Source of the DNA: a virus
Reading direction: 5' to 3' (one strand)
Length of the DNA: 45,733 nt
Virus record (IMG/VR): IMGVR_UViG_3300044712_000978
Coordinates: 1-45,733 of that record
Below, in pieces: positions 1 through 15,614 of the stretch (position 1 is the stretch's first letter; each line of letters starts with the position of its first letter). The notes under the pieces are model-generated. The model was given only the letters and a program-made list of their open reading frames with translations, did not search any database and was not told the DNA's origin. A program made the translations under genes and the position numbers.

Positions 1-127
1 GGGGTGCCGGGGGACCAGCCCAGCGGGGGGACGTGAAGAGGGCGCACCGTCTAGGCCGTCAACCGCCCGGCTTCCGATAGTGCGCCCTCAATGCCTAGAG
101 CCAACCGAGGTTTTGGGCGACGAGGAC
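1..127. repeat. Left copy of 127-bp exact terminal overlap
   Basis: Bases 1-127 are identical to 45607-45733, so the unique sequence is 45,606 bp. The length equals the largest k-mer of common short-read assemblers, which leaves exactly this overlap on circular contigs. I therefore read it as evidence of a circularly mapping, probably headful-packaged genome and not as a true terminal repeat. The overlap contains the end of the patatin gene and the hairpin that follows it. Confidence 0.97.
38..89 (-). terminator. Large inverted repeat after the last late gene
   Basis: A perfect 10-base inverted repeat (38-47 with 80-89, GAGGGCGCAC and its complement) with a 32-base loop begins five bases after the patatin stop codon. 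On the minus strand it could form a terminator-type stem, but it has no T-run. It sits where late leftward transcription should end, and a better terminator lies further on at 45535-45563. Structure is seen; function is inferred. Confidence 0.5.
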
Positions 128-1003
128 CGCCTGATTTCCTTCCGCCTGTCCCCGCTCCCACAATCCACGGGGCCGGAAGTCAAGCGAGCTGCCCGTCTGT
201 TCGGGGGGGTAGCAGTCGATGATCTCGACGCCCCTTTCCCGGGCATCCTGAGCCTCGCGGTCAGCATCGCTTTCCCCCCGTTCGACCACGCCCTGCAGGT
301 AGTCGAGCAAGAGCTTGATCCCGGTGTCGGTCGAGGGGACCGGGGTTTCGGGGCCAACCCGAACATCCTCGGTCGGCTTGCTCGAATCCTCCGGCCCGCA
401 ATAGACGACGATGACTTGCTCGGCCCCTTGATCCAGGGCGTAGCCGATGGGGGCGTTGTCGACCGCCCCGCCATCGCTATACCCGAGATGCGGGGGGAAG
501 ACCCCCTCAATGGCCGAGGTGCAAAGGGCCATGTCCTTGAGGCGGCCGTAAAGGGTGTCCACGCTTTTGGCCTTGCAAGCCCTCACCCTAAGCTTGATGC
601 CGGTCACCTTCTCGATCTCCTCGGTCGTCAGATCTCCGAAGACCTCCGAAACCAACCCTTGCAATGGCTCGGAAGAAAAAGCCGAGGGGGTGGTGAAAAG
701 GGACCGGACGCATCCCACGGCGTCAGCGATATGGGCGAGGGGACGCTCGAGGATCTCCGTTGCGCTCGGGGTGTAGACGTCCGTGTCCTGGGTGATGCGC
801 CCCCAGGCTTCAGCCAACACGGCCGTCCCCCGGGCTGAATAGAGCCCGGCCGCCAGGGCGCAGGCATTGAGGCCGCCCACGGAAGTTCCAACGATGCCCG
901 CTAGGTTGTTGAGCAACCCGGCTTTGTAGAGCGTGTCCAAGGCCCCGGCCTGCCATCTGCCGCAAGCCCCACCACCTACGAGAACGAGCCACCGCTTTTT
1001 CAT
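95..1003 (-). CDS. Patatin-like phospholipase
   Basis: A 302-residue protein with the full patatin active site. The glycine-rich oxyanion loop GGGACGRWQAG is at residues 10-20, the nucleophile elbow GTSVG has Ser41, and the DGG motif at 177-179 supplies the catalytic Asp. Patatins are serine lipid acyl hydrolases with a Ser-Asp dyad that cleave phospholipids. There is no signal peptide. It starts at an ATG five bases after the transglycosylase stop and is the last gene of the late/lysis operon, so a role in membrane breakdown at lysis is a reasonable inference. An alternative is changing host lipids during infection. Patatins are common in bacteria but unusual in a phage lysis cassette. Confidence 0.9.
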   Translation of the reverse strand: MKKRWLVLVGGGACGRWQAGALDTLYKAGLLNNLAGIVGTSVGGLNACALAAGLYSARGTAVLAEAWGRITQDTDVYTPSATEILERPLAHIADAVGCVRSLFTTPSAFSSEPLQGLVSEVFGDLTTEEIEKVTGIKLRVRACKAKSVDTLYGRLKDMALCTSAIEGVFPPHLGYSDGGAVDNAPIGYALDQGAEQVIVVYCGPEDSSKPTEDVRVGPETPVPSTDTGIKLLLDYLQGVVERGESDADREAQDARERGVEIIDCYPPEQTGSSLDFRPRGLWERGQAEGNQAVLVAQNLGWL

Positions 1004-1007
1004 GGCG

Positions 1008-1562
1008 TCACCATTTCCCCGCCTTGGAAACCTTGAGCTTCGTGATGGGCGGCTTCATCCCGAAGACCCGTCGCCGGGTGGCGAACACCCTGCGGGCGTA
1101 TGCGTAGGCCCGAAAGGAACTGCCGTTGTATTGGCGCACGGCTTGGAATTCATCGCCCTTCTGGTCGCGGAGGCAGTGCCAAAACTCAGCTACCCCGTAG
1201 GCGATTTGAGTTCGTGGATCAGAAACCGGGCCAAGCTGGACCCCGCGATCCGCCCACCACTTGCGCCAGATAGGTTCGTAGACGAGGAGGGTTTGGGTGA
1301 TCCCGAAGCTGCGGCCGTCGTCCCCCGAGATCTGACGAAAGCCGCTTTCCCGGTGCCACATCGAGAGCATCGTGGGGACGTGCCTACCAATCCCCGCCCT
1401 GGCCGCGAGCTTTTCCGTCTCACGGCCAGCGTAGAAGACGAGGCAGTTTTCACCGTCCTGGGATGTGGAGGCGTACCACCGGGCCATGACATCGGCCGGG
1501 GAGATGGATTGTGCCGGAGCTGCGATGGGAAGGAGCAGCAGCGCGGCGAAGATCAAGCTCAC
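1008..1562 (-). CDS. Exported lytic transglycosylase (SLT-like endolysin)
   Basis: The reading frame is open further upstream, but the GTG at 1562 is chosen because it overlaps the stop of the preceding gene as GTGA and is followed at once by a Sec signal peptide (SLIFAALLLLPIAAPAQS). The 184-residue product then has a lysozyme-like SLT fold signature: HRESGF with the presumed catalytic Glu72, SFGITQ, and a late RQYNG motif before the last helix. It should cleave the glycan strands of peptidoglycan. The signal peptide suggests Sec export, so it may reach the periplasm without the holin, unlike the M15 peptidase two genes upstream. Confidence 0.82.
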   Translation of the reverse strand: MSLIFAALLLLPIAAPAQSISPADVMARWYASTSQDGENCLVFYAGRETEKLAARAGIGRHVPTMLSMWHRESGFRQISGDDGRSFGITQTLLVYEPIWRKWWADRGVQLGPVSDPRTQIAYGVAEFWHCLRDQKGDEFQAVRQYNGSSFRAYAYARRVFATRRRVFGMKPPITKLKVSKAGKW

Positions 1563-1888
1563 GGCTGCTTCGGGGTCTCGACGCTGGCCGAAGCGGGTTC
1601 GGGGGCTGACGGCTCGGCGGTCGTGACCTTCATGGGGACGGGGACTGTCTGGCTTTTCTCGGGCCGGAGGGAGATGCCCGCCACTGTCACTGCAGCCAGG
1701 CCGAGAACCATTGCCACAACCCATAGCGTGTTCTCCAGAAGTTCCTTGGGAACGTTCGGGCGGCCAGCCAGCCAGAAAAGAGCCAGGACCGCTCCCAAGG
1801 CCAGCGTGAAGACCACGACGCGCTTGTCGTTCTGATGGTCCAGCATGTCCAGGCCCCGATCAATAAGGCCCTGCTTTTCGTCTGCCAT
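1559..1888 (-). CDS. Holin-like two-TM membrane protein
   Basis: A 109-residue protein with a charged N-terminus, two hydrophobic segments (about residues 24-42 and 54-72) joined by a short charged linker, and a Pro/Ala/Thr-rich tail of about 35 residues. Size, topology and position between two murein hydrolase genes fit a class II type holin, which permeabilises the inner membrane. No family was recognised by sequence. ATG at 1888 has a GGAGG site five bases upstream, and the stop overlaps the transglycosylase GTG. It could instead be an antiholin or accessory membrane protein. Confidence 0.65.
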   Translation of the reverse strand: MADEKQGLIDRGLDMLDHQNDKRVVVFTLALGAVLALFWLAGRPNVPKELLENTLWVVAMVLGLAAVTVAGISLRPEKSQTVPVPMKVTTAEPSAPEPASASVETPKQP

Positions 1889-1903
1889 GACTTCCTCCGT
1901 GAG

Positions 1904-2374
1904 CTATGTGGTGGGCCGTTTTGAGATCCAGACGCGGGTGCCGAGAACCTGATCAAGCCGGAAAATCTGACCGTCGTTTTCTCCGGTTGGCAGGCTGATG
2001 TGAACCCACGCGACTTTCTTGACGCTGTTGTACTCGTAGATGAGCTGGTGGAATTCCTCGGGGTCGAAATTATTGATGCACCACTGGAAAAGTGTCTCGG
2101 TATCCCCGGTCCCGCTGATCTCGCAATCCATCGCGGCACCAAGGGCATGCTGGCTCACGGGAGACCCACCGGCCAGATCGTTCACCTCGGGGCACCTGTA
2201 TCCGCTTGTGATGATGCAGCACCCGAACTGCTTGTGAATGCGCTCGGCAAACCGGTCAGCCATGACCTTGAGGCTCGCCCGGTGCGGGACCGCAGCCTTG
2301 AGATTCTGCTGCTGATGCCCGGCGAAGTTGGTTGTCGAAAAATCCTCAACCGAGAAGTTGTCGCTCAAGCGCAT
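1904..2374 (-). CDS. M15-family peptidoglycan peptidase (endolysin)
   Basis: A 156-residue protein of the M15 zinc carboxypeptidase/endopeptidase group. SGYRCPEVN (57-65) and SQHALGAAMD give zinc ligands His76 and Asp83, and WVH gives His125. These enzymes cut peptide cross-links in peptidoglycan. There is no signal peptide, so release probably depends on the holin encoded next. ATG at 2374 has a strong AAGGAG. Together with the exported transglycosylase, the phage carries two wall hydrolases that cut different bonds. Confidence 0.85.
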   Translation of the reverse strand: MRLSDNFSVEDFSTTNFAGHQQQNLKAAVPHRASLKVMADRFAERIHKQFGCCIITSGYRCPEVNDLAGGSPVSQHALGAAMDCEISGTGDTETLFQWCINNFDPEEFHQLIYEYNSVKKVAWVHISLPTGENDGQIFRLDQVLGTRVWISKRPTT

Positions 2375-2384
2375 GTCAGCTCCT

Positions 2385-2780
2385 TCAGGGATGGCCCTTC
2401 ATATGCTCGTCGAGACGCTGGTGAACTTCCCGGGCGTTCTGATCGGCCTTGTTCTGGACTTCCTTCACCTTCTCTTTGAGGTCGGCCATCTCGAGTTTCA
2501 TTTCGCCCCGGAAGGATCTGACCTCCTTGAGCACGGCGTCGTGGAGATGGTTGCAGTTACTTTTCGTCACCGTGTCGGATTCGAGCTTTTCAATCCGATC
2601 CGACATCTTCTTGAGCATCTCGATGTGCTTCCCGAAGACGAAGCGGGCGAGGAACCAGGCGACCGCCCCGGCTCCGGCAGCGAGGGCAAGCCACCCCTTG
2701 AGCATGGCTTCAATCGCCATCCTGGAAAGCTCCTGATTCTGGCTTACATGATCGGCGACTCGAGCGGGGATGTCGGACAT
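2385..2780 (-). CDS. Membrane-anchored coiled-coil protein (lysis cassette)
   Basis: A 131-residue protein. Residues 1-25 are soluble, about 28-49 form one transmembrane helix rich in Ala, Leu and Gly, and from residue 50 to the end there is a highly charged heptad-type coiled coil (KKMSDRIEKLE onward). This layout resembles an inner-membrane spanin (i-spanin) or a hemolysin XhlA-like holin partner. No outer-membrane lipoprotein partner was found next to it. ATG at 2780 has GAGG five bases upstream. The function is inferred from topology and position only. Confidence 0.55.
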   Translation of the reverse strand: MSDIPARVADHVSQNQELSRMAIEAMLKGWLALAAGAGAVAWFLARFVFGKHIEMLKKMSDRIEKLESDTVTKSNCNHLHDAVLKEVRSFRGEMKLEMADLKEKVKEVQNKADQNAREVHQRLDEHMKGHP

Positions 2781-2806
2781 GGAATCCTCGAAGTTGAGGC
2801 GATGCC

Positions 2807-4129
2807 TCAGTAGATTTCTCTAAACCCAAGCCCGGCGCAGTCAAGGGTGCTGGCGGCGCTAACCCCACGGATGGTCAAGACAATGACATCTTGAACCCCG
2901 TCGAAGTCAGCTCCGGCGTAAAAGAAGGGCTGCATATTCACAATGCCGCCCGAGCGCGTTTGATTGCTGATTCCATCGCTGGCCAGTCTGATGACGCCCG
3001 TTGTGTAGGTGAGCAACGTGAACCCACCCATGATCGACTCGGTTGCCGTCCTGGGGCCATCAACCGAATTGAAGGTCAAGCCGCTGTATCCGACGATGCC
3101 CGCCCCACCCTGGCACAACCAGACCTCAAGGACTGAATTGGAGTTCGAGGATTGAACCGCCCAGAATGCAGTGGGGGCCAGCCCGCCACGCTTCCAGGCG
3201 TCCTTCAGCCTGATGGCAATGACGGGGACGACCACTCCCGTGGAAGAGCTCACCGAAGTGGCCCGTACCTCATCAAATTCACGCCCGGTAGGATTGTAGC
3301 CTCCGTCAGCATCCAGCGACCAGCAGATCGTCGACGCTCGAGGCAAGGACGGAGGGGTGCCCCAATTCGAGACCTCCATCCGAAGCGGGAGCTGAGGGGT
3401 GCGGGTATAGACGCCGATGTTCCGGTTCGTGTTGTTGAATTGGTGGCAAAGGATGAACTTTCCGTCGATGACGAAACCGAAGAAGGTGTCTCCCACTCCG
3501 AGCCATTCCTGCTCAAACCAGAAAATGAAGGACTTCGAGATGTCCAAGGTGATCCCGCTCGGCCCGGTGCCATCCAACCGATCCTTGTTCCAGCTCGCTT
3601 GCACAACCTTGGTGTCAACCGGGGTGCCGCTGGTAGAAGAGCGCTGGACGAACGCCAGGCTGGCGGCCGTCCCGCTCAGCTCGAGGAACAGACCATCATT
3701 CGCGTCGAACATGCCGATGCGTTTCGCGCTTCCTGTGACAGCCCCGTAGAGGTTCCCGGTCGCCATCATGCGAATCCCTTTGCCCGGCTGATAGTGCCAG
3801 TATGATCGCGTCTGGCTGATCGCGTAGCCGCCAGCGACCGATCCCGAGGTGAGGGTCGTGGATGAATAGCTCACGTCATGGGTCGTCGCAGCGTTGGCCC
3901 CGAAGGTGATGCTCTGGAAATAGAAGTTGGTGGTGCCGTAGAGCCGCTTGAAATCGAACACCGTCTGCGGATTGGAGGTCCGAAGCCGCCCGAAGGCATC
4001 CGTCAGGGTCTTGCCAAACCCGGAGACATCCGACCGGCCTCCCGTGTTCGACCACCCACCGTCAGCCACCGCAAGGCCAGCGCAGAGAAGCCAGGGAAGC
4101 AGGAGCCAGAAGAAGATGCGCGTTTTCAT
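2807..4129 (-). CDS. Virion structural protein family with an added signal peptide
   Basis: The start at 4129 is chosen because the ATG overlaps the upstream stop as TGATG and opens a clear Sec signal peptide (MKTRIFFWLLLPWLLCAGLA, cleavage near AVA-DGG). The mature part (about 415 residues) matches from memory a family found in many phages as a putative tail or fibre structural protein. Its landmarks are DAFGRLRTSNPQTVFD, YQPGKGIR, RIGMFDANDG, STSGTPVDTKV, LDGTGPSGITLD and EWLGVGDTFFGFVIDGK. As I recall, family members are normally cytoplasmic virion proteins, so the signal peptide is odd. It belongs to a block of five such genes. Confidence 0.6.
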   Translation of the reverse strand: MKTRIFFWLLLPWLLCAGLAVADGGWSNTGGRSDVSGFGKTLTDAFGRLRTSNPQTVFDFKRLYGTTNFYFQSITFGANAATTHDVSYSSTTLTSGSVAGGYAISQTRSYWHYQPGKGIRMMATGNLYGAVTGSAKRIGMFDANDGLFLELSGTAASLAFVQRSSTSGTPVDTKVVQASWNKDRLDGTGPSGITLDISKSFIFWFEQEWLGVGDTFFGFVIDGKFILCHQFNNTNRNIGVYTRTPQLPLRMEVSNWGTPPSLPRASTICWSLDADGGYNPTGREFDEVRATSVSSSTGVVVPVIAIRLKDAWKRGGLAPTAFWAVQSSNSNSVLEVWLCQGGAGIVGYSGLTFNSVDGPRTATESIMGGFTLLTYTTGVIRLASDGISNQTRSGGIVNMQPFFYAGADFDGVQDVIVLTIRGVSAASTLDCAGLGFREIY

Positions 4130-4434
4130 CAGTTCCCCGGAGTGCGGGTGAAGGTTGCAGTCACCGATGCAGTCACGGTGACTGGCTCGGTCATGGTGGC
4201 GGTGTCGTCCTTGTCCTTGGTCTTCTTCTGCGTGGGGGGCGGTGTCCAAGACCCCTCGGCCTCCTTGGTCTTGGTCTTCTTGTCGTCAGCTTCCTTGGTC
4301 AGGGCCTTGTCGATTTTCTCCTGCTCCTTGACCCCGGGCTTGCCGATGGTCGAGACAAAGCCGGGCTGAGAGATTTCGATGGTCGAGGCCAGGGCCGCCA
4401 TCGTGAGCAGATACGCCATGAGGAAGAGCTTCAC
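4129..4434 (-). CDS. Small exported Lys/Thr-rich protein
   Basis: A 101-residue protein that starts at a GTG overlapping the upstream stop (GTGA). It has a hydrophobic leader (about residues 1-17, ending in ALAS), then a strongly charged, probably disordered middle (KEQEKIDKALTKEADDKKTK) and a C-terminal Thr/Val run (TVTASVTATFTRTPGN). The Thr-rich tail resembles the TPT repeats of the 548- and 308-residue proteins nearby. No family was recognised. Its tight coupling to both neighbours points to a shared task at or beyond the inner membrane. Confidence 0.55.
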   Translation of the reverse strand: MKLFLMAYLLTMAALASTIEISQPGFVSTIGKPGVKEQEKIDKALTKEADDKKTKTKEAEGSWTPPPTQKKTKDKDDTATMTEPVTVTASVTATFTRTPGN

Positions 4435-5243
4435 CAGACCCTCCTGAGCTGTGATGCCGGGACCGCCTGTTGCTGAGGTGCCAGGAAGGCTGGTCCCTTT
4501 TTGAAGTGAAGGGTCGGCACAGGCACTATCTGCTCCCGCGCCGCCACCCCTTCAGATGGCGGGAACGGTTCGTCCGGGTTCGTCGAAATCATGTAGGCGT
4601 CGTAATACTCCAGGAAGAACCGATTGCAGCACGGGTAGCCCATTCCGGTTGTCGGAGGATTCGAGCCAGGCCAATTGATGGCCCACTTGTTTTCAAAGGT
4701 CAGGACCTCGTTGGCGTAGTATTTGAATCCGGTCGTCGACCACTTGATGCGGATGGTTGCCGTTGTGCCGTAGGTGTAGCCGATGGGCCACGAAAGGGTC
4801 TTGGCCCCAGCGGTCGTCGTGGTGAAGTCGCAGGCCATGATCTGCCCGCCACCGCCGCCCCAGTAAAAGTTGATGTAGGGGCCAGCGCCGGAGTAGAGGA
4901 CGTATCCATACGGGGAGGGCTGGTTTCCCTGCTTGGTGTAGAAGACCAGGCAGCCTTGGGTCGGGACCGGATTGAACATCGAGGAGGGGAAAGTGATGTT
5001 CGTTCCGCCTCCGCTCGTCACGCCGTAGGCCCACCACTTGTCGCCCTCGGGGGGCGTGGGTGTTGACGGATTCCCGGGTGCCCCGCCCGACACCACAACC
5101 GGGGTGTTGCCGTTCCCAGTCCAGTCATACATCTGGACCTGGCCCGAGTTGCCCTTCAGATACATCAGGACGTTAGGGCTGTAGGCTTGGGCAAAGATCG
5201 GGATCAGCAAGATGAAGGCGACAAGCTTCACGATCAGCCTCAC
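4431..5243 (-). CDS. Exported beta-rich protein, possibly LamG/lectin-like
   Basis: A 270-residue protein with a GTG start overlapping the upstream stop (GTGA). The N-terminal signal peptide runs through about residue 20 (LLIPIFAQA then YSP). The mature region is rich in Gly, Trp, Tyr and Thr with alternating hydrophobic strands (for example GYVLYSGAGPYINFYWGGG and RIKWSTTGFKYYANE). This is compatible with a concanavalin/LamG-type beta sandwich, which often binds sugars. That fold call is a guess from composition and strand pattern. A role in surface attachment or modification is inferred from its exported neighbours. Confidence 0.5.
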   Translation of the reverse strand: MRLIVKLVAFILLIPIFAQAYSPNVLMYLKGNSGQVQMYDWTGNGNTPVVVSGGAPGNPSTPTPPEGDKWWAYGVTSGGGTNITFPSSMFNPVPTQGCLVFYTKQGNQPSPYGYVLYSGAGPYINFYWGGGGGQIMACDFTTTTAGAKTLSWPIGYTYGTTATIRIKWSTTGFKYYANEVLTFENKWAINWPGSNPPTTGMGYPCCNRFFLEYYDAYMISTNPDEPFPPSEGVAAREQIVPVPTLHFKKGPAFLAPQQQAVPASQLRRVW

Positions 5244-6886
5244 GGGGCGAAGGAAGTTCCGGTCCAGTTCGCGTCCCTCTCATAGATGGTCCTGATGCGG
5301 GAAGCGTTCGGCCCGAACGGAGCCCAGAACCACCCGAAGGGCCAGGTCACTCCGTCGATGACGCGGGTGGAACCGGGGGCAATTTCCTCGAAGTTGAAGT
5401 TGCAGTCGGTTGGCACGGTCGATGTCGTTGAGCGCCTGAAATAGACCGTCTGAGAATTCGAGGCCGCGTTGATGATGGTCAACTTCGTCTTGGCGCTCGG
5501 AGTCATGAAGAAAGGGGTGCCCGATCCTGGAGCCGAGACTGTGACATCGAACGATGCGTATTCCCCGGTGGTGGTCCAGATGGGGGCCGCGATCTTCGCG
5601 CCAGCGGTGAACGTCGAATAGTAGGCGCTTTCATACGCCTGGGCGGCCGTGTTGTAGGCGGGCGGGGACGCAGCGCTTGGGGTCCCCGTGGTGATGACAT
5701 AATTCCCGGCCATGCCAGACGCGACCTGGCTGACATCGGCGGGCCGCGTGAGACCGACCTGCCAGGCGTTGGTTCCGCTGATGTAACCAGCCCCGCCCAC
5801 CACGGTTGAGGCCACCGTTCCGTTCGGATTCGAGCCGCCCGTGGTGAACGCTTGGTAAGTCATGGCGCTGATGGTCGTCGAAAGGCTATCCAGGGTCCGG
5901 GCGGTCCGGGTGTCGGCCACAGCCACGGGCGCGGTGACTGCCCACGCCGTGATGCTGGTCCCGAGGTATCCAGCAGACCATGCCGTGACGGTCGTGCCGA
6001 CAGCCAGGGTGGCGCTCAAGAGGTTCGCCAACGCCTGGGCCGTGGTGGTGTCGGACACGAACACGCGCCCGCCATCGCTGAAGACCTGCGTGAGCGTTCC
6101 GTTCGCAGTCCCGGTGAGACGGACGGCCATCTGCGAGATGGTGGAGATGAACCCGGTGGGTAGCCCAAAGCCCGTGTCCCCCGGCAGCACGGTCGAGGCG
6201 TTGTAGACCCCAAGCTGCTCGGTCGTCTGGTGGTTCCATAGGGTCACAAGGCCAGCGCCGGATGCGGAGCCGAACCCTGACGGGGTGAATCCGATGCGCC
6301 CGAAGGGCTCAAAAGCCGGAGCCCCGTTCAGGGTCAGGCCATAGGAACCTGCAGCTCCCTGGGAGGCGAACCCGGTCAAAGGATCATCATTGGTGGCGTA
6401 ATCCCAAGCCTTGACGGTCGAAGTCAAAACCCCGGAAGTGCTCGCCGAATTGGTGACGATTTCAGAAAGGTATCCGTTGCGGGTAGCGGACAAAGAGCTC
6501 GTGTCGCTCGTTATCGAAACGGCCCTGGTGGCGGAACCGGTCTCCCGGACATCAATGGGCGTTGTGGCGATGATCGGCAAAGGCCCCGCCGTCCACGAGG
6601 TCACGCTGACGGCCCCGGCAGTCCCACCCCCTGCGGCCGAGAAGGCGATGGTGTTTCCCTCAGAATCCGACATGACCACCTGGACCATCTTCAGGTTCGT
6701 CTTGCCGTTGTAGAGGCTCGGGCCATCTGAAAACTGCCGGACGCTGATGTGCGGGGTCGGGGTGGGAGTCCCGGCATAGGGCGTCAGCGTCTTCGTCGGC
6801 GTCAAGGTGCGGGTCGGTGTGTTGGTTGCCGCACCAAGGGGCAGAGCGAAAACCAAGACCGCCAGGAACATCAGAGTCCGGTTCAT
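5240..6886 (-). CDS. Large exported protein with short TPT stalk
   Basis: A 548-residue protein with an N-terminal signal peptide (MNRTLMFLAVLVFALPLGAA). It is followed by a short Thr-Pro stalk (about 22-46, TPTRTLTPTKTLTP) and a long Ser/Thr/Ala/Gly-rich beta region with low-complexity strand repeats, as in fibre or surface proteins. No catalytic motif was seen. ATG at 6886 has GGAGG five bases upstream. The stalk links it to the gene just upstream, which has a much longer stalk. It may be a secreted or surface-displayed adhesin-like protein; no function can be assigned. Confidence 0.55.
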   Translation of the reverse strand: MNRTLMFLAVLVFALPLGAATNTPTRTLTPTKTLTPYAGTPTPTPHISVRQFSDGPSLYNGKTNLKMVQVVMSDSEGNTIAFSAAGGGTAGAVSVTSWTAGPLPIIATTPIDVRETGSATRAVSITSDTSSLSATRNGYLSEIVTNSASTSGVLTSTVKAWDYATNDDPLTGFASQGAAGSYGLTLNGAPAFEPFGRIGFTPSGFGSASGAGLVTLWNHQTTEQLGVYNASTVLPGDTGFGLPTGFISTISQMAVRLTGTANGTLTQVFSDGGRVFVSDTTTAQALANLLSATLAVGTTVTAWSAGYLGTSITAWAVTAPVAVADTRTARTLDSLSTTISAMTYQAFTTGGSNPNGTVASTVVGGAGYISGTNAWQVGLTRPADVSQVASGMAGNYVITTGTPSAASPPAYNTAAQAYESAYYSTFTAGAKIAAPIWTTTGEYASFDVTVSAPGSGTPFFMTPSAKTKLTIINAASNSQTVYFRRSTTSTVPTDCNFNFEEIAPGSTRVIDGVTWPFGWFWAPFGPNASRIRTIYERDANWTGTSFAP

Positions 6887-6896
6887 TTAATCCTCC

Positions 6897-7751
6897 CTAC
6901 CAAGGCGTGAGGGTTGACCTTGGCGTGATGGTGAAAGAAGGCGTCGGGGTGCGCGTCTTGGTCGGCATCAACGTCTTCGTCGCTGATCTGGTCGGTGACG
7001 GCGTGATCGTCCGAGTGATCGTCTTGGTCGGCGTGATGGTCCTCGTCGCCGTCTGGGAATTCGTCGACCTCGGCGTGATGGTCAAAGTGATGGTCCGCGT
7101 CGAGGTCTTCGTGATCGTGGAAGTGGCTGTCGGCGTGAACGTCCGCGTAGGCCGGGGGGTCTTCGTGTAGGAAACCGTTGGCCTGGTGGTCTTCGTCGAA
7201 GTCGAAGTCGGGGTGATCGTGAAGGTCGGCGTCACGGTCTTCGTCCTCGTGCTCGTCGATGTAAAGGTCGGGGTGATCGTGGAGGTGCTTGAGAACGTTG
7301 GAGTTGTCGTTTGAGTGCTTGTTTCAGTCGAAGTCGGGGAGATCGTTGAGGTGTTCGTGAAAGTTGGGGTGATGGTGTGGGTGTAGGTTGGAGTCGGCTC
7401 GGGGTATTGGTAATCCGCCGACAGAGTTTCCGTGTTGAAATCAGCAACCCCGGCCGCCCAGTGGAAAGAGGGCAAGGTGATCTCCGTGGACCCCACCGTG
7501 AAGTTGATGCTCCCACCAGGACCCTCGGACACGCCAGCCGCCGCCGTGGTCCCGTAGGCGGAGGTTTCTCCGTAGTAGATGTTGATGCTGTTGACGAAGC
7601 CGATGCCTCCCTCAACGGTCGCATTGCCGACCCACGAGTACATGTTGCCGCCCTCGGCTGTGATGGAAACCGAGTTGATGATCGGGGGAGTGGCGGCATG
7701 GGCAGGGGAGATCAGAAACGCCAGACTGAGGATGAGCATGATCGTTTTCAT
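6897..7751 (-). CDS. Exported protein with long Thr-Pro repeat stalk
   Basis: The start at 7751 (ATG, GGAG five bases upstream) is chosen over a longer open frame because it opens a textbook signal peptide (MKTIMLILSLAFLISPAHA then ATPP). The mature protein has a ~100-residue folded domain rich in aromatic and Gly residues, then from about residue 118 to the end a ~165-residue tract dominated by Thr, Pro and Ser in a TxTxTPTxT pattern. Such tracts form extended, often O-glycosylated stalks in bacterial surface proteins. No membrane anchor follows the stalk, so it may be secreted or bound by partners. It is the first gene of the five-gene exported block. Confidence 0.6.
   Translation of the reverse strand: MKTIMLILSLAFLISPAHAATPPIINSVSITAEGGNMYSWVGNATVEGGIGFVNSINIYYGETSAYGTTAAAGVSEGPGGSINFTVGSTEITLPSFHWAAGVADFNTETLSADYQYPEPTPTYTHTITPTFTNTSTISPTSTETSTQTTTPTFSSTSTITPTFTSTSTRTKTVTPTFTITPTSTSTKTTRPTVSYTKTPRPTRTFTPTATSTITKTSTRTITLTITPRSTNSQTATRTITPTKTITRTITPSPTRSATKTLMPTKTRTPTPSFTITPRSTLTPW
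6900..7390. repeat. Degenerate short tandem repeats encoding the Thr-Pro stalk
   Basis: The plus strand shows many imperfect copies of GTCGGCGTGATGGTC-like and GTCTTCGTC-like units, with period about 9-30 bases, matching the Thr-Pro coding tract. Copies vary mostly at synonymous or Thr/Ser/Pro-preserving positions. This suggests selection for composition, with expansion and contraction of the repeat. Confidence 0.7.
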
Positions 7752-7776
7752 ATCGTCTCCAGAATTTGAGAAGGAA

Positions 7777-8925
7777 TTAGAACCGTGAGAACATGTAGCT
7801 TTTGCTGGTCTTGTCCAGGCCATCGCTGAGCCAGATGCGCTCCCCGTCGAAAGTGAGCTTCGGAACTCCGGCCCCGACTTTGGCGAAGGTCCGCACAGGG
7901 CTCAATCCGCTGGTGGGCTTTCCAATGACGACCTTGCTCAGGTCCATCGAGGCCACGATCCCGCCGAAAGCCTCGAGTGAGTAGTCGCTCGCCGAGGCGG
8001 CAGTCCATGCCTGCGAAGTCGCCACACCGCCAGCGGCAAAGGTCGCCAGCGGCATCTTGTAGATGAGCGATCCGTCCGTCTTGAGGCAGTAGACGTACTC
8101 GCCATCGGAAACCAGGCCGCGCACGGCAGCCCCGCCAAATGTCCAAGCGGTCCCGGCCGACCCTCCGGCGTTCGCTCCGATCACATAGTTGTTGGTCACG
8201 TCGAGGAAAGCGAATTGCGCCCCTGCAGAAGAGGCGCACTTGAGGGAGCAGACGTTTTTGAAGCTGGCCCCTCCCCCGACCACGATGTTGGCCAGGCTGA
8301 CCATCGCTTCGAAATCCACGAACCGGAGCGTGTCGTCCGAGTGAGCAATGGCGACCAAATGCGGGGCGGCTTCATCGGCGAAATATCCGTAGGCCGCGTG
8401 GCGATCTGCAGCCATAGCCGGAAGGCCGGTCACTGAATCCAGCTCAACCAAGGTGTCCAGATCCAGCTTCCAGAGGGTGCCGATGGCCTGCCACATCAAG
8501 GCCAAGCCGAGCGGGGTCCATTCGAGCAGGATCGGGGTTCCCGCTGCTGAAGGCCCGGCAGGAAGCGCAACCGAAAGCTCAACCTCGCCGGTCTTTGGGT
8601 TGAACTTCTCGATCGTGAGGGCATCCCGGTCCACCCCATAGGACCAGTCCGGCCCATGGCAGACCTTGGCATAGGTTGTGCTCGTCAGCAGGTAGCCGTC
8701 CCCGGGATACATCCCGGGGCTCAAGCTGAGACGGGTGGGGGCGAAGTCGGTCACCAGCTCGAGATACCGGAGCCATTCGTAGGTCCACTTGTGCAGCCAG
8801 TTGAACCACTGAAGGGGCGGCTTTTCCCCAACCCACCCGATCTCCTGCTTCCCCACGGTGGGGGTTTCAATGAGGGCGCTGCCCCCCGTTGCGAAATTGG
8901 GCCGTTCGGCCGGTTTCGTCGCCAT
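7777..8925 (-). CDS. Tail fibre protein, beta-propeller-like C-terminus
   Basis: The start at 8925 (ATG, GAGG upstream) opens a 382-residue protein. The N-terminus has the typical tail-fibre attachment signature: KPAERPNFATGG, then GKQEIGWVGEKPP and WFNWL (residues 3-44), known from many myophage fibres. The rest has repeated short blocks of the type DGEYVYCLKTDGSLIYK and DGERIWLSDG, suggesting a beta-propeller or quinoprotein-like repeat domain. It directly follows the DUF2612 and baseplate J genes, the usual place for the receptor-binding fibre. The attachment role is well supported; the propeller is inferred. Confidence 0.75.
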   Translation of the reverse strand: MATKPAERPNFATGGSALIETPTVGKQEIGWVGEKPPLQWFNWLHKWTYEWLRYLELVTDFAPTRLSLSPGMYPGDGYLLTSTTYAKVCHGPDWSYGVDRDALTIEKFNPKTGEVELSVALPAGPSAAGTPILLEWTPLGLALMWQAIGTLWKLDLDTLVELDSVTGLPAMAADRHAAYGYFADEAAPHLVAIAHSDDTLRFVDFEAMVSLANIVVGGGASFKNVCSLKCASSAGAQFAFLDVTNNYVIGANAGGSAGTAWTFGGAAVRGLVSDGEYVYCLKTDGSLIYKMPLATFAAGGVATSQAWTAASASDYSLEAFGGIVASMDLSKVVIGKPTSGLSPVRTFAKVGAGVPKLTFDGERIWLSDGLDKTSKSYMFSRF

Positions 8926-8932
8926 TGAATCC

Positions 8933-9508
8933 TCAGAAAAGTTGAGCGAAAGTCCCGCCCGCCAGCGGGTCGGTCGTGTCCCCGAAGCCCAGGGCATCGA
9001 GGTCTGTCAAGAATCCAAAAGGCTCTTCCGGGGCCGTGCTGGCATCAAGGGCGACCCCGGCAGGCTTGGCCGCCAGCAAGGCTTCCTTGACGAAGCTCAA
9101 GAGGATGATGGGCGTCCCCTGGAAAACCTGAAGGTGGAAGGATGCCGGGAAAGCCTCGAAAAGCTGAACCGGTGCCCCGGTCATCAACCGAGAAAAAAGA
9201 GACTCCATCTCATTGGGCGTCCCTTCGCACGAATTCTTGGCAACCTGAATCCAGAGCAAGGCTCGGTAGCTGTCGTCATCAAGCCCGGACCTGGCTTGGT
9301 CGAGCAGATCCCCGAAGCGATCCAGTTGATCCCCCTGGGCGCTCGCGAGGTTGTCGTAGTTGAAGACAGCGATCGAGGCGTCCTCCACCCGTTGCGACCC
9401 TTCGCAGAAAATCCTGAGCATGGCCTGGAAGTTCTGAGCGGAAACCCACTGCGTCATGCACTTCGCCAGGGCCTCGGGATAATGCGCGACTGTGGGATGC
9501 GAGATCAT
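8933..9508 (-). CDS. DUF2612 tail/baseplate protein
   Basis: A 191-residue protein with the DUF2612 signature (GDQLDRFGDLLDQ, DDSYRALLWIQVAKN, GTPNEM at about 58-100). Family members follow baseplate J and precede tail fibres, functionally like the Mu gp48/P2 gpI position, and link baseplate wedge to fibre. The start ATG overlaps the stop of the J-like gene (ATGA). The C-terminal 50 residues look disordered and Gly/Asp-rich. Confidence 0.75.
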   Translation of the reverse strand: MISHPTVAHYPEALAKCMTQWVSAQNFQAMLRIFCEGSQRVEDASIAVFNYDNLASAQGDQLDRFGDLLDQARSGLDDDSYRALLWIQVAKNSCEGTPNEMESLFSRLMTGAPVQLFEAFPASFHLQVFQGTPIILLSFVKEALLAAKPAGVALDASTAPEEPFGFLTDLDALGFGDTTDPLAGGTFAQLF

Positions 9509-10719
9509 GGGTTCGTGACCTCAATGCGGCTGCTGTCAAAGCTGGCGAGCTGCCTGGTTCCGATGGTGATAGGGGCTTGATTGACCGGGACGGGGATGGA
9601 GTCGATGTAGAGGTCGACGGCATTCACGCCCTGGACCGACAGGATTGCGGCCATGAACCGAACCGGGAAGACGTCGACCCCCACTTCCTGCTCGTTCCCG
9701 AAGGCCAGCAAGGCCGCAGCAACCTGATCGTTCCCATCCGCAGGATAGAGCGGACCCTCGGCCGGGTTCGTGTTCGGGGTGACGATGGCCGCGATGTAAA
9801 GCTCGACTTGCTCGGGCCTGCTGAAATTCACCGTCTGGTTGTTTCCCTGGATGTCGGTCACGACCTGAGAAGTCGTTCCGAACGTCTCGATGCCCGCTGG
9901 CTTCGCGGCCCACAAGGCGGCAGCAATCGCCGAGTCGGTTCCGCCCTGCACCACCGCCTCGATCGACTTCGGGGGAAGGCCGTCCCCGTTCACGACATCC
10001 CCTGTGTTTTCGTAGACGTGGCAGCTTAGAACATCCACAACCTGCGAGAGGACCGTGAAAATAGCGTCCAGGGTCGAAGCCCCGGCCGTCGACAGGGACT
10101 GCTTGCGCCTGATGCGCAGCTCGGCGTCCGTTTCGACATCCCGTCCCAGGGTGGCGTCTTGGGCGTTCGAGATCGCCGTGATCCCCGCAACCGGGGTGTC
10201 GATCTCGGTCAAAGACCCGGCCGGGGCTGCCACCGGCCCGCCGATCAAGCCGGAAGCAGCAACCGCGATGCAGAACATTTCGACGGACACCGTGCCGCCC
10301 CCGCCGACCGTGAACTGCTGCTCGGTCACGAAAGCGGCGTCCGCATTGCCGTCAACATGGGCCTGGAAACCAATCGGGATGATCGTGCCCGGGGTGCCCA
10401 CCACCACGGGCATGTTCCCGGCCGCGCTGGTGAAAGACGAAGGGATGGCCGAAAGCCTGGTCACGTTGTTGATGCTCGCCGCTGAATCCAGATCCTGGCC
10501 AGCAGCCGAATTCGGGCTCCGTGAGTTATAGATCGCCTCGAGCAATTCCCACAACGAAGCCTCGCGGGCGGCCAGCAATGCGATGAGCTGCCCTTCCGGG
10601 GTGGAGGCATCGAGGTTGACGCTGTTCCCAAACTCGCTTTTGAAGCTCGCCTCCAGGGCGGACTTCACATCTTCAAAGCGCATCGGGACGAAACCGCTGG
10701 GGCTCAGGCCGAAGCTCAT
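9505..10719 (-). CDS. Baseplate J-like wedge protein
   Basis: A 404-residue baseplate J family protein (T4 gp6/Mu gp47/P2 gpJ class). The N-terminus has LDASTPEGQLIALLAAREAS, followed by a hydrophobic strand-rich domain, GRDVETDAELRIRRKQSLS in the middle and a C-terminal domain with PVRFMAAILSVQGVNAVDLY. It builds the baseplate ring around the tail hub. ATGA overlap with the upstream gp25-like gene indicates translational coupling. Confidence 0.9.
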   Translation of the reverse strand: MSFGLSPSGFVPMRFEDVKSALEASFKSEFGNSVNLDASTPEGQLIALLAAREASLWELLEAIYNSRSPNSAAGQDLDSAASINNVTRLSAIPSSFTSAAGNMPVVVGTPGTIIPIGFQAHVDGNADAAFVTEQQFTVGGGGTVSVEMFCIAVAASGLIGGPVAAPAGSLTEIDTPVAGITAISNAQDATLGRDVETDAELRIRRKQSLSTAGASTLDAIFTVLSQVVDVLSCHVYENTGDVVNGDGLPPKSIEAVVQGGTDSAIAAALWAAKPAGIETFGTTSQVVTDIQGNNQTVNFSRPEQVELYIAAIVTPNTNPAEGPLYPADGNDQVAAALLAFGNEQEVGVDVFPVRFMAAILSVQGVNAVDLYIDSIPVPVNQAPITIGTRQLASFDSSRIEVTNP

Positions 10720-11072
10720 AACGTCACCACCACAGAAACAGGAGAACCGTCAGTGTAGGTGCAGACCAGATCAACGGTGAGCTTTCTGGTCTGCGCATCG
10801 AGCTCCACATCCAGGGTTTCAACGTCGGCGATGCCCTTTGTCGACAACACCGCCTCCTGGAGGTAGGACTTGATGACCTCAATCGGAGTGCCTTTTTCGA
10901 AGATGATCTGGAAATAGGGCAAGCCGAGGGTGATGTCAAGAAACCATTCCCCGAGGAAGGTGCGCAGGTTCTGGGCCAAGTTCTGCTTGGCCTCCTGAGC
11001 GCCGCTCGTGTTCCGCATCTGGCCGTTGGTGAAATCAACGTCCCCGCTATCCGTGCAAAGCCACCCGCTCAT
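10716..11072 (-). CDS. GPW/gp25-like baseplate wedge protein
   Basis: A 118-residue protein of the gp25/GpW family. QNLRTFLGEWFLDITLGLPY (residues 34-53) contains the conserved glutamate of this lysozyme-derived fold, and the order just before baseplate J is standard. In T4, gp25 initiates sheath polymerisation on the baseplate. ATGA overlaps link it to genes on both sides. Confidence 0.88.
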   Translation of the reverse strand: MSGWLCTDSGDVDFTNGQMRNTSGAQEAKQNLAQNLRTFLGEWFLDITLGLPYFQIIFEKGTPIEVIKSYLQEAVLSTKGIADVETLDVELDAQTRKLTVDLVCTYTDGSPVSVVVTL

Positions 11073-11761
11073 TGTTTGAGTCCCTCCAGCGCGGTTTTGA
11101 TGAGAAGAAGCTGGGCCAAGACGGCTGGGTTGAATTGCGAGACAACGGCGGTCGGAGGCCCGGCCCCGAGGATGTTGCTGGCCGTGGTGAGCTGAGTTAA
11201 AAGCTTGACCAGCTCATCCATCAATTCGACCACCCCGTTCCCCATCACCAGCTTCTGCCCGTTGGCGGCCATGATCTTGACCGTTCCCGTGTTCGTGATC
11301 TCAACGTAGGCCCCACCGAAGGCGAGCTCGGCGCTCGATGACGCCCCATTCGGGGTGATTGCGTTGCCCTTCGTGCGAAGCCCCGGGACGGCGATGGCGT
11401 CATTGGTCGAGAATTTCCGGGGAAGCTCCGGGTCTTGAGACCCTCCGTTGAGCCACCAGTTGTCGAGCGCCCGCTCGGCGAAGTGAACAAGCACCGTGTC
11501 CCCGGCAGCCACGGGGAACCGAAGCCACGCCTCTTGTGTGGCCGGGAAGAAAACCGGCACGTTGGCGACCACCTGATACTCGCGAACCGTCCCGTCGTTG
11601 TAGGCCCGCTTGAAGCCGAGCCGGACGGAAGCTGACTGCGTGGCCGCGTCGAAGTTTTCCACCACGCCCGGCATGCAGGTGTGAATCTCCCCGAGCCAGT
11701 TCTGCTTCACCATCTCGAGGATCTCGGTCAGGGTCGGCGTGTTGGATGCGAAGTTACTCAC
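11069..11761 (-). CDS. Baseplate central spike protein (Gp138 N-domain type)
   Basis: The start is taken at the GTG at 11761, with GGAAG six bases upstream and an eight-base overlap with the previous gene. The ATG at 11809 would overlap by 56 bases. The ~230-residue product has an OB-like N-domain typical of Gp138-type spike proteins (GEIHTCMPGVVENFDAATQS, then VPVFFPATQEAWLRFPVAAG and LVHFAERALDNW). A beta-helical segment (AYVEITNTGTVKIMAANG) and a C-terminal helix follow. It should form the membrane-piercing tip under the hub. Confidence 0.78.
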   Translation of the reverse strand: MSNFASNTPTLTEILEMVKQNWLGEIHTCMPGVVENFDAATQSASVRLGFKRAYNDGTVREYQVVANVPVFFPATQEAWLRFPVAAGDTVLVHFAERALDNWWLNGGSQDPELPRKFSTNDAIAVPGLRTKGNAITPNGASSSAELAFGGAYVEITNTGTVKIMAANGQKLVMGNGVVELMDELVKLLTQLTTASNILGAGPPTAVVSQFNPAVLAQLLLIKTALEGLKQ

Positions 11762-12611
11762 GATTGGCTTCCAGAAGGATCGGGTTCGTGTTGATCGTCT
11801 GCGCCTCAAACTCGCTATACCAGTCGCCTTCGAGGGAATCCCCTTGGTGGATCACCTTCAGCACTCGCATTTCGGCGGGCTGCTTGAGGGATGAGGATTC
11901 AACGACCACCTTTTTCCCGGGCACGATCTGGGGGTTGAGCAGAGCCTTGACCTTGAATTCCTGGTCCCGGACCTTGCTCGGGAATCCGAGCATTCCGGTG
12001 TCCTTCGAAAGCAGGATTTCAGCACCGTCCTGATACCGGTCCCCCCGGTAGATGTGCAGCGCCCCGTTGTCGACGCTCCAGTTGAGGTCATAGCGGGAAG
12101 TCAAGATGACGAGCAGGCCCTTGACCGTCCCCTCATAATGGAACCCCCTCGGGTAACTGCCGGCCGCGAAGGAAGCCAGGGTCGCGTTGTCGATGAAGCC
12201 TGCCGCCAACCCGTAGCCGACCAACGTCTGCTTGATCCGCTCCCAGACCTGAAGATCTGTCAAAGCCCCCGAGATCCCGATGGTCGCTGATTGCGCCCAA
12301 GCCATCCCCGAGCCGAGGACGATGTTCGTGAGGATGTCGGCCCCGTTCCGTTCCGTGAAGGCGTAGTAGATGTCGCCATAGAAGAGGACGCTTTGGCCTT
12401 CCTCGTAGCCGACCGCCAGCGTCACCCGCTTCGGCCCGCTTGAATCCTTCTGCTCGATGTAGTCTCGCGAGGCTTGCGAAAGGTTGAAGGCTTTGATTGT
12501 GCTCTTGTTGGCAACCATCCCGGCCGTATCTTTTTCGACCGTGAATTGTAGCCGCACCCCGAAGACCTTTTCACCGACAGTCAAAGATGCCTTTCGGAGG
12601 TATTGTTCCAT
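11754..12611 (-). CDS. Baseplate hub protein (gp27/XkdQ-like)
   Basis: A ~285-residue protein. ATG at 12611 overlaps the plug-gene stop (TGATG); a GTG lies three bases earlier. Features of phage hub proteins are visible: a beta-rich N-domain (GVRLQFTVEKD and VTLAVGYEEG with VLFYGDIYYAF), a middle lacking motifs, and DNGALHIYRGDR followed by GMLGFPSK and EFKVKALLNPQIVPG, typical of gpD/XkdQ-type hubs. It forms the hub on which the spike sits. The exact family was not verified. Confidence 0.72.
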   Translation of the reverse strand: MEQYLRKASLTVGEKVFGVRLQFTVEKDTAGMVANKSTIKAFNLSQASRDYIEQKDSSGPKRVTLAVGYEEGQSVLFYGDIYYAFTERNGADILTNIVLGSGMAWAQSATIGISGALTDLQVWERIKQTLVGYGLAAGFIDNATLASFAAGSYPRGFHYEGTVKGLLVILTSRYDLNWSVDNGALHIYRGDRYQDGAEILLSKDTGMLGFPSKVRDQEFKVKALLNPQIVPGKKVVVESSSLKQPAEMRVLKVIHQGDSLEGDWYSEFEAQTINTNPILLEANRE

Positions 12612-12937
12612 CACGAACTCTCGGCGTAGTAGAGGGGAACCGTATCCCCCAAGGTGTCGAACGTCGGCTCCTGATGAGCCCCGGTCGGATCAAGAGCCTG
12701 AAGGATGCCCGGGGGGAGGCCTGCATAGCGGCCGACATAGGGCGCTGTCACAGGCCACCCTTCCCGGATGGCAAGGCCCGAGATGATCGTCGTCCCATCC
12801 GCAGCGGCCACGTCCAGAAGCCAGCAGGCCATCCGGGAGTTCCACCGGATGGTCAAGGTGTAGACCGCGCCTTCAAGCGCGATCCGCTGAACGCTTTTCC
12901 CTGAGGTGTTGTCAACGGGGATGGTCACAATGCTCAT
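12611..12937 (-). CDS. Baseplate plug-family protein
   Basis: A 108-residue protein resembling the phage baseplate plug family: LEGAVYTLTIRWNSRMACWL, then LDVAAADG with a later LDPTGAHQEPTFDTLGDTV and a terminal LYY. These small beta proteins are encoded between the Dit-like protein and the hub and close the baseplate channel. ATGA overlaps on both sides show tight coupling. Confidence 0.72.
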   Translation of the reverse strand: MSIVTIPVDNTSGKSVQRIALEGAVYTLTIRWNSRMACWLLDVAAADGTTIISGLAIREGWPVTAPYVGRYAGLPPGILQALDPTGAHQEPTFDTLGDTVPLYYAESS

Positions 12938-13632
12938 GGGAGATTCACGAAAGAGACGGGGATGTTCTTCGGGGCGAGATCCAAGATCGTGGTGTCGCCT
13001 ACGGTCTTCGCGGTCGGCTCAACCCCCTTCGCCCTCGCCGGGCTCGTGACCTGGGTGCCCACGGGATTTGTCGGAGCAGCGGTCGGCCTATCGGCGCTGT
13101 TGATCTTCGAAATTTTCACGGTCTGGGTTGCAACCGTTCGGATCTGGTCGAGCGTGGCCTGGAATTGGAGCGTCTGCCCGGTGCGGGCATTGCGCACCGG
13201 ATTGAAGCTCGTGAAGACCATGTTCTTGTAGACCTTGAGCCCCCCCACGAAGTCAAAGGGCTTCCGGTCCCGGTACATCTGCTCGAGGATCTTGAAGGCG
13301 GCCGAAGCCGGGTTCGGGAGAAGCTTCACGTTCGTCGTCAGAAAGGCCAAGCTTTCGAGCAGCGGGGTGTTGGTAATCACCCCCTCAATGAGAAGCCTCG
13401 GGGGCTTGAGGGTGACGTGATCGCTGATGATCGACCCGTCTTCGACTTCGCTTTTCGTCGCCTCGGCCGTGAGGGAGAAATTCTCAAGCACCATGCAATC
13501 CAAGGCGACGACGAGCGGGCCGGTCTTGTTGCTGTCGAGGTTCTGGTCGGGATTGGACTGCGCGGCCGACACAAAGCCCTTCGGCTTGAGCCACGGGAAC
13601 CGCTCCGTCACGACTGCGAAAAGGGCGGGCAT
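12934..13632 (-). CDS. Dit-like tail protein
   Basis: A 232-residue protein. Residues ~43-95 carry the Dit-like N-domain pattern (DCMVLENFSLTAEATKSEVE, then DGSIISDHVTLKPPRLLIEG). The middle has KPFDFVGGLKVYKNMVFTSF and a beta-strand run, and the C-terminal 60 residues are Pro/Thr-rich and may be flexible. In this gene order it joins the tail tube to the baseplate hub. ATG at 13632 overlaps the tape measure stop (TAATG). Confidence 0.7.
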   Translation of the reverse strand: MPALFAVVTERFPWLKPKGFVSAAQSNPDQNLDSNKTGPLVVALDCMVLENFSLTAEATKSEVEDGSIISDHVTLKPPRLLIEGVITNTPLLESLAFLTTNVKLLPNPASAAFKILEQMYRDRKPFDFVGGLKVYKNMVFTSFNPVRNARTGQTLQFQATLDQIRTVATQTVKISKINSADRPTAAPTNPVGTQVTSPARAKGVEPTAKTVGDTTILDLAPKNIPVSFVNLP

Positions 13633-14915
13633 TAGCGCACCGCAGAAGGGGTCATGTCAGCGGCCAAGGCCCGCAGCATGCTTTGCTGCTGCTGCGTGAC
13701 AACCGTTGCGATCTCGTGAGCCCCGGGACCCTTGGCCTCAACGTTGGCGCTCGCGTTCAGATTGATGACCGTCGTCGAGCTGGCGGAAGAAGGCCCCGAC
13801 GTCGGACGCCATGAGCTCTCGTCGCGCCCCCCTCCGATCGCATACATGGAAAGGCCAAGCCCGGCAGCGGCAAGCCCACCAAGAAGGAGCGATGTCCCGC
13901 CCGTGGCGATGGCTTCCCAGATCGCCAGCGTCCGCATCGCTGCCGCGAGCATTTGAACGGCTCGAACTACCTCGATGATCTTGATGACGGTCTCGGCGGT
14001 CGCCCAGATGGCGAATCCGATCCCGACGATCTTGAGGACGTTGCCAAGCCCCCCGAGCATCGCCGTGACCTTCATGCCGATGTCCAGCATGGTCACAAAG
14101 AAGTCGACGGCACTCCCCAGGCTGGTTGCCATCTGCTCAAGGGCGCGGCCGAGCTGCTCGGTGACGCGCCCGGCGTTGGCTTCGGCCCACGACTTCAGGG
14201 CCTCCATCATCCTTGTCACGGCCGGGATCACCCGGGAGCCCAGGGTCAGGCGCAGGCCTTCCAGCATTTCCTTGAGATCCTTTTGAACCTCCCGGAACGT
14301 CTTGGCCTTGGCGATCGCCTCGTCGCTCATCACGATCCCGTACTTGTGCGCCTCGGCCGAGGCTGCACGAAGCCCCTCAGCGCCCTTGCTCAGCATGGGG
14401 ATCATCAGCGCCCCGCTTCGGCCGAAAAGCTCCTGCGCGAGCGCAGTCTTCTTGACCCCGTTCTCCATCGTCTTGAACTTCGCGGCCACTTCATAGAGCA
14501 GGGCATCCGAGGTCTTGAGCTTCCCGTTGGCGTCCGTGACCTGCACTCCGATAGCGGCAAATCCTTTCCGGGCCTGCTCGGAGCCGGTCGAGGCATCGTA
14601 GGCGTGGCGCGAAAGGAGGCGCATGGCGACGGTGAACTGCTCGACCTCAACCCCGGAATGCTCGGCGGCTTCCCGAAGCTCCTGGAATCGGCCGGTCGCC
14701 ATACCCACCTGCTGCGACATGAAGCTGACCGACTTGGCCGTGGTAGATGCGCTCTCGGCCAAGGCGAAAACTGCTGTCGCCTTTGAAACGGCAAAACCGG
14801 CGAAAGCGGCCATTGACAGCTTGAGGCCACTAACCCGGTTTTCCATCGCGGCAAGAGGCTTCTGGTCGATCTCAAAGCCCCACCGCGTCACAAGCTCTCG
14901 GACGGTCATGCCCAT
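13632..14915 (-). CDS. Tail tape measure protein
   Basis: A 427-residue, mostly helical protein with long Ala/Leu/Lys segments, hydrophobic stretches around residues 285-365 (MLGGLGNVLKIVGIGFAIWA, then MLAAAMRTLAIWEA and a Gly-rich TM-like run) and a C-terminus that ends in helices. It directly follows the frameshifted chaperone, as in most tailed phages, and sets tail length. At about 0.15 nm per residue this predicts a short tail of roughly 60 nm. ATG at 14915 has GGAG six bases upstream; ATG at 14909 is an alternative. Confidence 0.85.
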   Translation of the reverse strand: MGMTVRELVTRWGFEIDQKPLAAMENRVSGLKLSMAAFAGFAVSKATAVFALAESASTTAKSVSFMSQQVGMATGRFQELREAAEHSGVEVEQFTVAMRLLSRHAYDASTGSEQARKGFAAIGVQVTDANGKLKTSDALLYEVAAKFKTMENGVKKTALAQELFGRSGALMIPMLSKGAEGLRAASAEAHKYGIVMSDEAIAKAKTFREVQKDLKEMLEGLRLTLGSRVIPAVTRMMEALKSWAEANAGRVTEQLGRALEQMATSLGSAVDFFVTMLDIGMKVTAMLGGLGNVLKIVGIGFAIWATAETVIKIIEVVRAVQMLAAAMRTLAIWEAIATGGTSLLLGGLAAAGLGLSMYAIGGGRDESSWRPTSGPSSASSTTVINLNASANVEAKGPGAHEIATVVTQQQQSMLRALAADMTPSAVR

Positions 14916-14916
14916 G

Positions 14917-15542: not shown

Positions 15543-15573
15543 GGTCAGGGCTCCATGTGGGGGTTCGATTAAA

Positions 15574-15586
15574 ATAAAGGCTTAAT
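15574..15586. promoter_or_regulatory. 13-bp motif shared with the control region
   Basis: ATAAAGGCTTAAT here is repeated exactly at 45520-45532 in the main intergenic region, with a 14/16 inverted relative at 45441-45456. Here it lies in the AT-rich 72-base gap upstream of the tail chaperone gene, inside a GATTAA...TTAATC inverted repeat (15568-15588). It could be a phage regulator site or promoter element; this is inferred from recurrence in non-coding DNA only. Confidence 0.45.
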
Positions 15587-15614
15587 CTTTCGCCTAGCGG
15601 GCATCCTGGAGGCG

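Follow-up and report, generated by a model that had tools for sequence, protein, structure and literature searches.

We analysed the virus record IMGVR_UViG_3300044712_000978 over its whole length, hereafter the window (45,733 nt, G+C 61.9%), and found that five consecutive genes on the minus strand, g1 to g5, lie directly behind the gene of a tail-fibre adaptor and all encode proteins that begin with a predicted signal peptide. One of these proteins, g5, is a predicted member of a family of virion structural proteins, and a predicted exported gene occupies the same position behind the adaptor in other phages. Standard tail-fibre subunits assemble in the cytoplasm. We propose, with a probability of roughly 0.4, that the block is this phage's version of an exported fibre or adhesin module that lies behind the adaptor and is fitted to the virions at lysis. 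The proteins would accumulate late in infection in the outer envelope or the periplasm, where they would fold, and the opening of the inner membrane at lysis would allow them to be fitted onto adaptor-bearing virions; receptor-binding parts of the virion would thereby mature outside the cytoplasm. In phages with a stub adaptor, the long exported protein would replace the distal fibre.

The block is bounded by the adaptor (8922-7777, minus strand, 381 residues) on one side and by a holin-like gene (2780-2385, minus strand) and an M15 endolysin gene (2374-1904, minus strand) on the other. The first gene, g1 (7751-6897, 284 residues), lies 25 nt from the adaptor and encodes, behind the signal peptide MKTIMLILSLAFLISPAHA, a protein with an N-terminal part of about 100 residues followed by a Thr/Pro-rich tail. 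The protein of g2 (6886-5240, 548 residues) has a Thr/Pro-rich linker behind its signal peptide, with cleavage likely near residue 19-20. It is followed by g3 (5243-4431, 270 residues, signal peptide MRLIVKLVAFILLIPIFAQA), whose product is lectin-like by eye only, by g4 (4434-4129, 101 residues, signal peptide MKLFLMAYLLTMAALA), whose product is small and Lys/Thr-rich, and by g5 (4129-2807, 440 residues), the virion-family protein with an added signal peptide, MKTRIFFWLLLPWLLCAGLAVA. The five look like real genes, because their GC content at the third codon position (0.76-0.84) is like that of the neighbouring phage genes. The initial annotation of the window had placed the five open reading frames (ORFs), with starts at 7751, 6886, 5243, 4434 and 4129, between the tail fibre and the lysis cassette, had given each a signal peptide, and had described them as translationally coupled. 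The frames, the starts, the position and the signal peptides all hold. Of the four junctions, three overlap (g2-g3 and g3-g4 by 4 nt, g4-g5 by 1 nt); g1 and g2 are close but separated by 10 nt.

Signal peptides were recognised with a rule-based test that requires a charged n-region, an 8-residue hydrophobic core and small residues at positions -3 and -1. The test accepted the five proteins of the block (5/5) and 1 of the 52 other ORFs of the window, a patatin-like protein that is probably a false positive. All nine typed control signal peptides were accepted, the best-scoring site differing from the expected one in MalE and LamB. Among 33 coding sequences of E. coli, the test accepted the five counted as exported and 2 of the 28 others, TolA and YbgE, which we take to be membrane proteins. 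The mature parts of the five proteins have no strong second hydrophobic stretch (the top mean hydropathy over 19 residues is 1.41), and we regard their predicted export as well supported. One could argue that these N-termini do not act as export signals in vivo, being membrane anchors or skipped by internal starts, and that the block encodes normal virion proteins of the cytoplasm: the rule-based predictor was the only one used, it also accepted the two E. coli membrane proteins, and codon 21 of g5 is an in-frame GTG. We find this very improbable, since all five N-termini combine a charged start, a short core and AXA-like or similar cleavage sites, since the start codon of g5 falls within the 1-nt overlap with g4, as a true start would, and since the proteins of the relatives (see below) are enriched in cysteines, mostly in even numbers, which fits an oxidising compartment. 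A start of g5 at the GTG, which would skip the signal peptide, is not favoured, as no ribosome site is seen upstream of it by eye.

The initial annotation had assigned one product of the block to a known virion family, and this is the case of g5. It matches PHROG 1645 (E 3.8e-73) from residue 40 to 439 of its 440 residues, and from 48 to 439 of the 440 positions of the profile. Relatives of g5 occur in 173 named phage records, mostly cyanophages, and its likeness over residues 40-439 extends to the proteins of cyanophages, Puniceispirillum phage HMO-2011 and phage DSL-LC04. Five annotated relatives (27-34% identity) begin just ahead of the conserved domain and have no signal peptide (0/5), whereas the protein of the window has one. 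In IMG/VR, at least 586 stretches (of 600 candidates) encode relatives of g5, and none of the best 80 of them has a signal peptide at any of the starts tested. In the window, a predicted signal peptide thus precedes a virion-type protein, its virion membership being assigned by family. The initial annotation had found it strange that a tailed phage should export five products, including a member of a virion family, and it remains so. Single-protein queries of IMG/VR with g5, g2 and baseplate J confirmed no close relative, and a search of solved structures with the g5 alignment gave no match. A comparison of g3 with g5 gave no support for a relation between them.

A search for homologous blocks found the layout again in other phages, with an exported gene behind the adaptor in 20 other records. 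The loci collected for this survey (numbered with the prefix L) came from scans of IMG/VR with an alignment of baseplate J (80 loci) and with two adaptor alignments (6 and 20 loci); the window and L109 served to build adaptor alignment A5, and five records of the exported type served to build A6. A signal-peptide gene directly follows the adaptor in 21 of the 42 evaluable records (20 of 41 without the window, which itself has this arrangement), vs 71 of 2166 background genes, i.e., other genes of at least 100 residues; the loci were selected by likeness to baseplate J and to adaptors, and 21/42 is not a prevalence. In the set collected with baseplate J only, the neighbour is exported in 11 of 28 records. 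When the next gene encodes at least 250 residues, it has a signal peptide in 19 of 21 cases. The exported neighbour is associated with the length of the adaptor: it is present behind 15 of the 20 adaptors shorter than 250 residues and behind 6 of the 22 longer ones (p 0.005, the rows being related and kinship not corrected), i.e., 15 of the 21 records with an exported neighbour have a short adaptor. Several loci have signal-peptide genes in a row, often behind a gene with a tail-fibre N-terminal domain.

Records were evaluable when a complete next gene started at most 120 nt from the adaptor, which was the case for 42 of 52 adaptor hits and led us to drop the other ten (L008, L096, L117, L134, L168, L170, L182, L184, L188 and L191). 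Copies of the window sequence (L001, L205), L122, which is near-identical to L121, and contigs already represented (L179, L185, L186, L187, L192, L194, L197 and L201) were removed before the count. L189, which the gene finder missed, has its fibre behind its adaptor as judged by position. In some of the records scored as negative, the next ORF is short and perhaps not a gene (e.g., L105, L183), and the exported run of the window was scored as 3 because the gene finder chose a wrong ORF over g4.

In the tree of baseplate J (41 rows), the exported label requires six changes, of which at least four are forced by well-supported branches. The window is outside the main exported group, beside L107 and L115, and its adaptor is closest to that of L109 (63-64% identity across 58-59 residues). 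These findings suggest that the module has been exchanged. A wide inspection of three named-phage relatives by baseplate J noted no exported block; in one of them, L007, two small consecutive genes were flagged as signal-bearing and are perhaps spanins.

The exported proteins of the relatives resemble fibres. In the 15 records with short adaptors, the exported neighbours have 623-786 residues. Profile A7 comprises 13 of these exported fibres (L093, L095, L121, L127, L129, L131, L137, L144, L190, L193, L195, L196 and L203), 0-9 nt away from the adaptor in 12 records and 29 nt away in L203. Two more proteins match A7 in part: the exported protein of L109 does so in its N-terminal region (E 3.8e-30), and the product of the third exported gene of L204 in its later region (E 2.2e-77). 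The L125 record has no match to A7. Other records have different domains, i.e., Phage_depo_C in the 1324-residue exported protein of L125 (E 3.3e-6) and Peptidase_S74 in that of L145 (E 7.9e-10), and searches of solved structures with the proteins of L125, L198 and L145 gave no match. The mature exported proteins of 19 relatives have a median cysteine content of 1.68%, vs 0.47% in other genes; it is higher in 17 of the 19, and the number of cysteines is even in 17 of the 19. This pattern, whose statistics carry no correction for the kinship of the records, fits disulphides formed in an oxidising compartment. The cysteines and the domains support, as a prediction from sequence, the view that the products of the relatives reach their fold outside the cytoplasm and resemble fibre tips or adhesins.

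In eight records, chosen for it, the fibre is followed by a second exported protein (L095 5400-5987, L131 10131-10772, L144 15075-15833, L093 6256-7041, L190 9597-10319, L193 6347-6916, L196 9774-10514 and L203 9255-9989). These proteins form one family and keep four cysteines in all eight cases. Fibre assembly proteins often lie behind the fibre gene, i.e., at the same place. The relatives keep the order of multi-gene tail fibres (adaptor, distal subunit and assembly protein) with their adaptor, long fibre-like protein and companion, but their distal and companion products carry predicted signal peptides. Two other exported proteins, encoded by L125 14457-15062 and L180 10837-11277, contain cysteines, are alike by eye and have a lectin-type resemblance without a Pfam match. 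In L109, the exported fibre is followed by a 574-residue protein (8097-9821) that looks by eye like a metallophosphatase whose N-terminus carries a hydrophobic segment.

The single match of A7 among solved structures is 8okw_C (E 7.1e-5, 120 profile positions). Structure 8OKW is the TNF-like tip of Bd2734, a mosaic adhesive trimer (MAT) fibre of Bdellovibrio, and the tagged MAT proteins tested were surface displayed, as described in PMC10769870. The same source names as a feature of these trimers a conserved beta-rich domain of about 130 residues after the signal peptide. The A7 fibres are likewise exported and phage-fibre-like, with a tip domain related to the solved MAT tip, and some MATs are of S74 type (PMC10769870), a domain also present in the exported protein of L145. 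MATs are host genes, whereas here the genes are those of phages and lie behind a tail-fibre adaptor. The five proteins of the window share the predicted signal peptide with MATs; no fibre-tip domain was found in them, either by searching solved structures with g3 and the g5 alignment or by comparing g1-g5 with A7. The search with g3 returned only two T-cell-receptor chains (E 0.33-0.34), which we take as chance. The window is tied to the relatives by position and export rather than by demonstrated homology.

These similarities also fit a different fate of the proteins, which may stay on the host envelope as surface or periplasmic adhesins, either masking or blocking the receptor that the phage itself uses or altering host adhesion as MAT fibres do. 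Receptor blocking would exclude other phages and keep the released progeny from sticking to debris. We regard this as a serious possibility, if short of an even chance. Llp of T5 is an exported phage protein that acts on the host envelope, and Lom, Bor and Llp are single small proteins. Lom and Bor also act there (PMC8065619), and all three are phage-encoded and exported like the proteins of the block; in contrast, the window has five in a row, including one of a virion family, and the exported proteins of the relatives are large, fibre-like and tied to the tail-fibre adaptor. Retention on the envelope is also consistent with the match of A7 to the tip of a surface-displayed fibre. Several of the observations that speak for it weigh against attachment to virions: the relatives of the tip in Bdellovibrio are host-surface proteins (PMC10769870), the adaptor of the window has a C-terminal part of its own, and five records of the exported type encode another fibre-like protein (262-280 residues in L144, L203 and L196, 360-367 in L131 and L093) in which no signal peptide was flagged and which could be the one used by the virion. 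To these must be added that half of the adaptor records (21/42) have no exported neighbour, that g1-g5 have no significant match to A7, that the mature proteins of the window have few cysteines (0 to 4 each) and those of L145 and L198 (2/19) are not enriched in them, and that no named phage was found to have the L127 fibre or the 201-residue protein of L125. The proposal also presumes a host with an outer membrane, and we know of no precedent for exported tail fibres in tailed phages.

We lean towards attachment to virions because retention on the envelope leaves unexplained both the association with short adaptors and the presence of a protein of a virion structural family in the block. Among the functions listed by the initial annotation, secreted adhesins gain support from the relatives, with their exported genes behind adaptors and their domains of fibre-tip type; attachment to released virions and action at the host surface, through display or blocked receptors, both fit the results. 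The similar layout in other uncultured viruses suggests that parts of some tail fibres, or adhesins derived from them, mature outside the cytoplasm. More tentatively, some contractile-tailed phages may export distal fibre parts and their companions via Sec, have them fold and form disulphides in the periplasm and fit them onto adaptor-bearing virions only at lysis, and the surface fibres of predatory bacteria may share ancestry with such phage fibres. Should exported fibres be added to virions at lysis, the assembly of tailed phages would not be limited to the cytoplasm, and their receptor-binding parts could contain disulphide bonds. Retention by the host would mean that phages encode surface adhesins or receptor blockers as large as fibres and linked to their own tail genes. 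The relatives also offer a starting point for tracing how predatory bacteria came to have exported phage-like fibres. In the literature searched, which left most subscription journals outside, no title or abstract opening mentions fibres that are exported and encoded behind a tail-fibre adaptor. The signal peptides of endolysins are treated in PMC8951688, and the absence of signal peptides from diversified phage proteins is used in PMC6199706 as support for a phage origin.

The composition of g1-g4 bears on another explanation, in which the block is made of unrelated cargo genes gained one by one, with real signal peptides and separate roles in host fitness. No family is common to g1-g5, and g1-g4 have no clear one: at an E-value of 0.1, Pfam gave nothing for g1-g3 and one sub-threshold match for g4, PHROG matches were weak only, NCBIfam gave none, and tblastn of g2 and g3 against named phages at E 0.01 had no match. 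Single-sequence structure models of g2 and g3 had mean pLDDT values of 31 and 34 and were not used for fold searches. The products of g1, g2 and g4 are Thr-rich (mature g1 has 31% Thr, mature g4 20% Thr and 16.5% Lys) and have Thr/Pro-rich stretches, a style seen in secreted proteins of some bacterial phyla; these stretches are a possible clue to the host. We nevertheless consider a collection of cargo genes unlikely, given the tight spacing of the five genes, their similar codon-position GC and the presence of an exported gene in this position in 20 further records.

The rest of the window is that of a contractile-tail phage, with genes for the sheath (PHROG 205), major head protein (PHROG 264), baseplate wedge (PHROG 6), tape measure, baseplate hub, portal and large terminase. 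It is probably a complete genome, because the contig has a direct terminal repeat of 127 bp. No tRNA was found in it, nor an integrase among the part of its ORFs scanned for families, and no named phage has a near DNA match to positions 1000-16000. One scan of genome contigs returned six loci in scattered bacteria and did not find the host. Conversion genes of the Lom and Bor type belong to temperate phages and have a promoter of their own; in the window, promoter-like sites are absent from the block, and the two found in positions 1-12000 compare with 1.5 expected by chance. The adaptor matches PHROG 2282, a tail fibre protein, over a short N-terminal stretch (E 0.00024); it has an N-terminal domain of the baseplate-attachment type, followed by the C-terminal part without a recognised fold, and the rule-based test gives it no signal peptide.

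Beyond the endolysin, a frame of 184 residues (1008-1562) has a GTG start that overlaps the stop of the gene at 1888-1559, and a hydrophobic signal-like beginning after which it resembles, by eye, a lytic transglycosylase. Its product is a candidate for a sixth exported protein; it fails the rule-based signal test, having no charged start, and family searches with it gave no match. The end of the lysis region encodes a patatin-like phospholipase (95-1003; PF01734 in Pfam, E 4.6e-19), perhaps a membrane-acting lysis factor.

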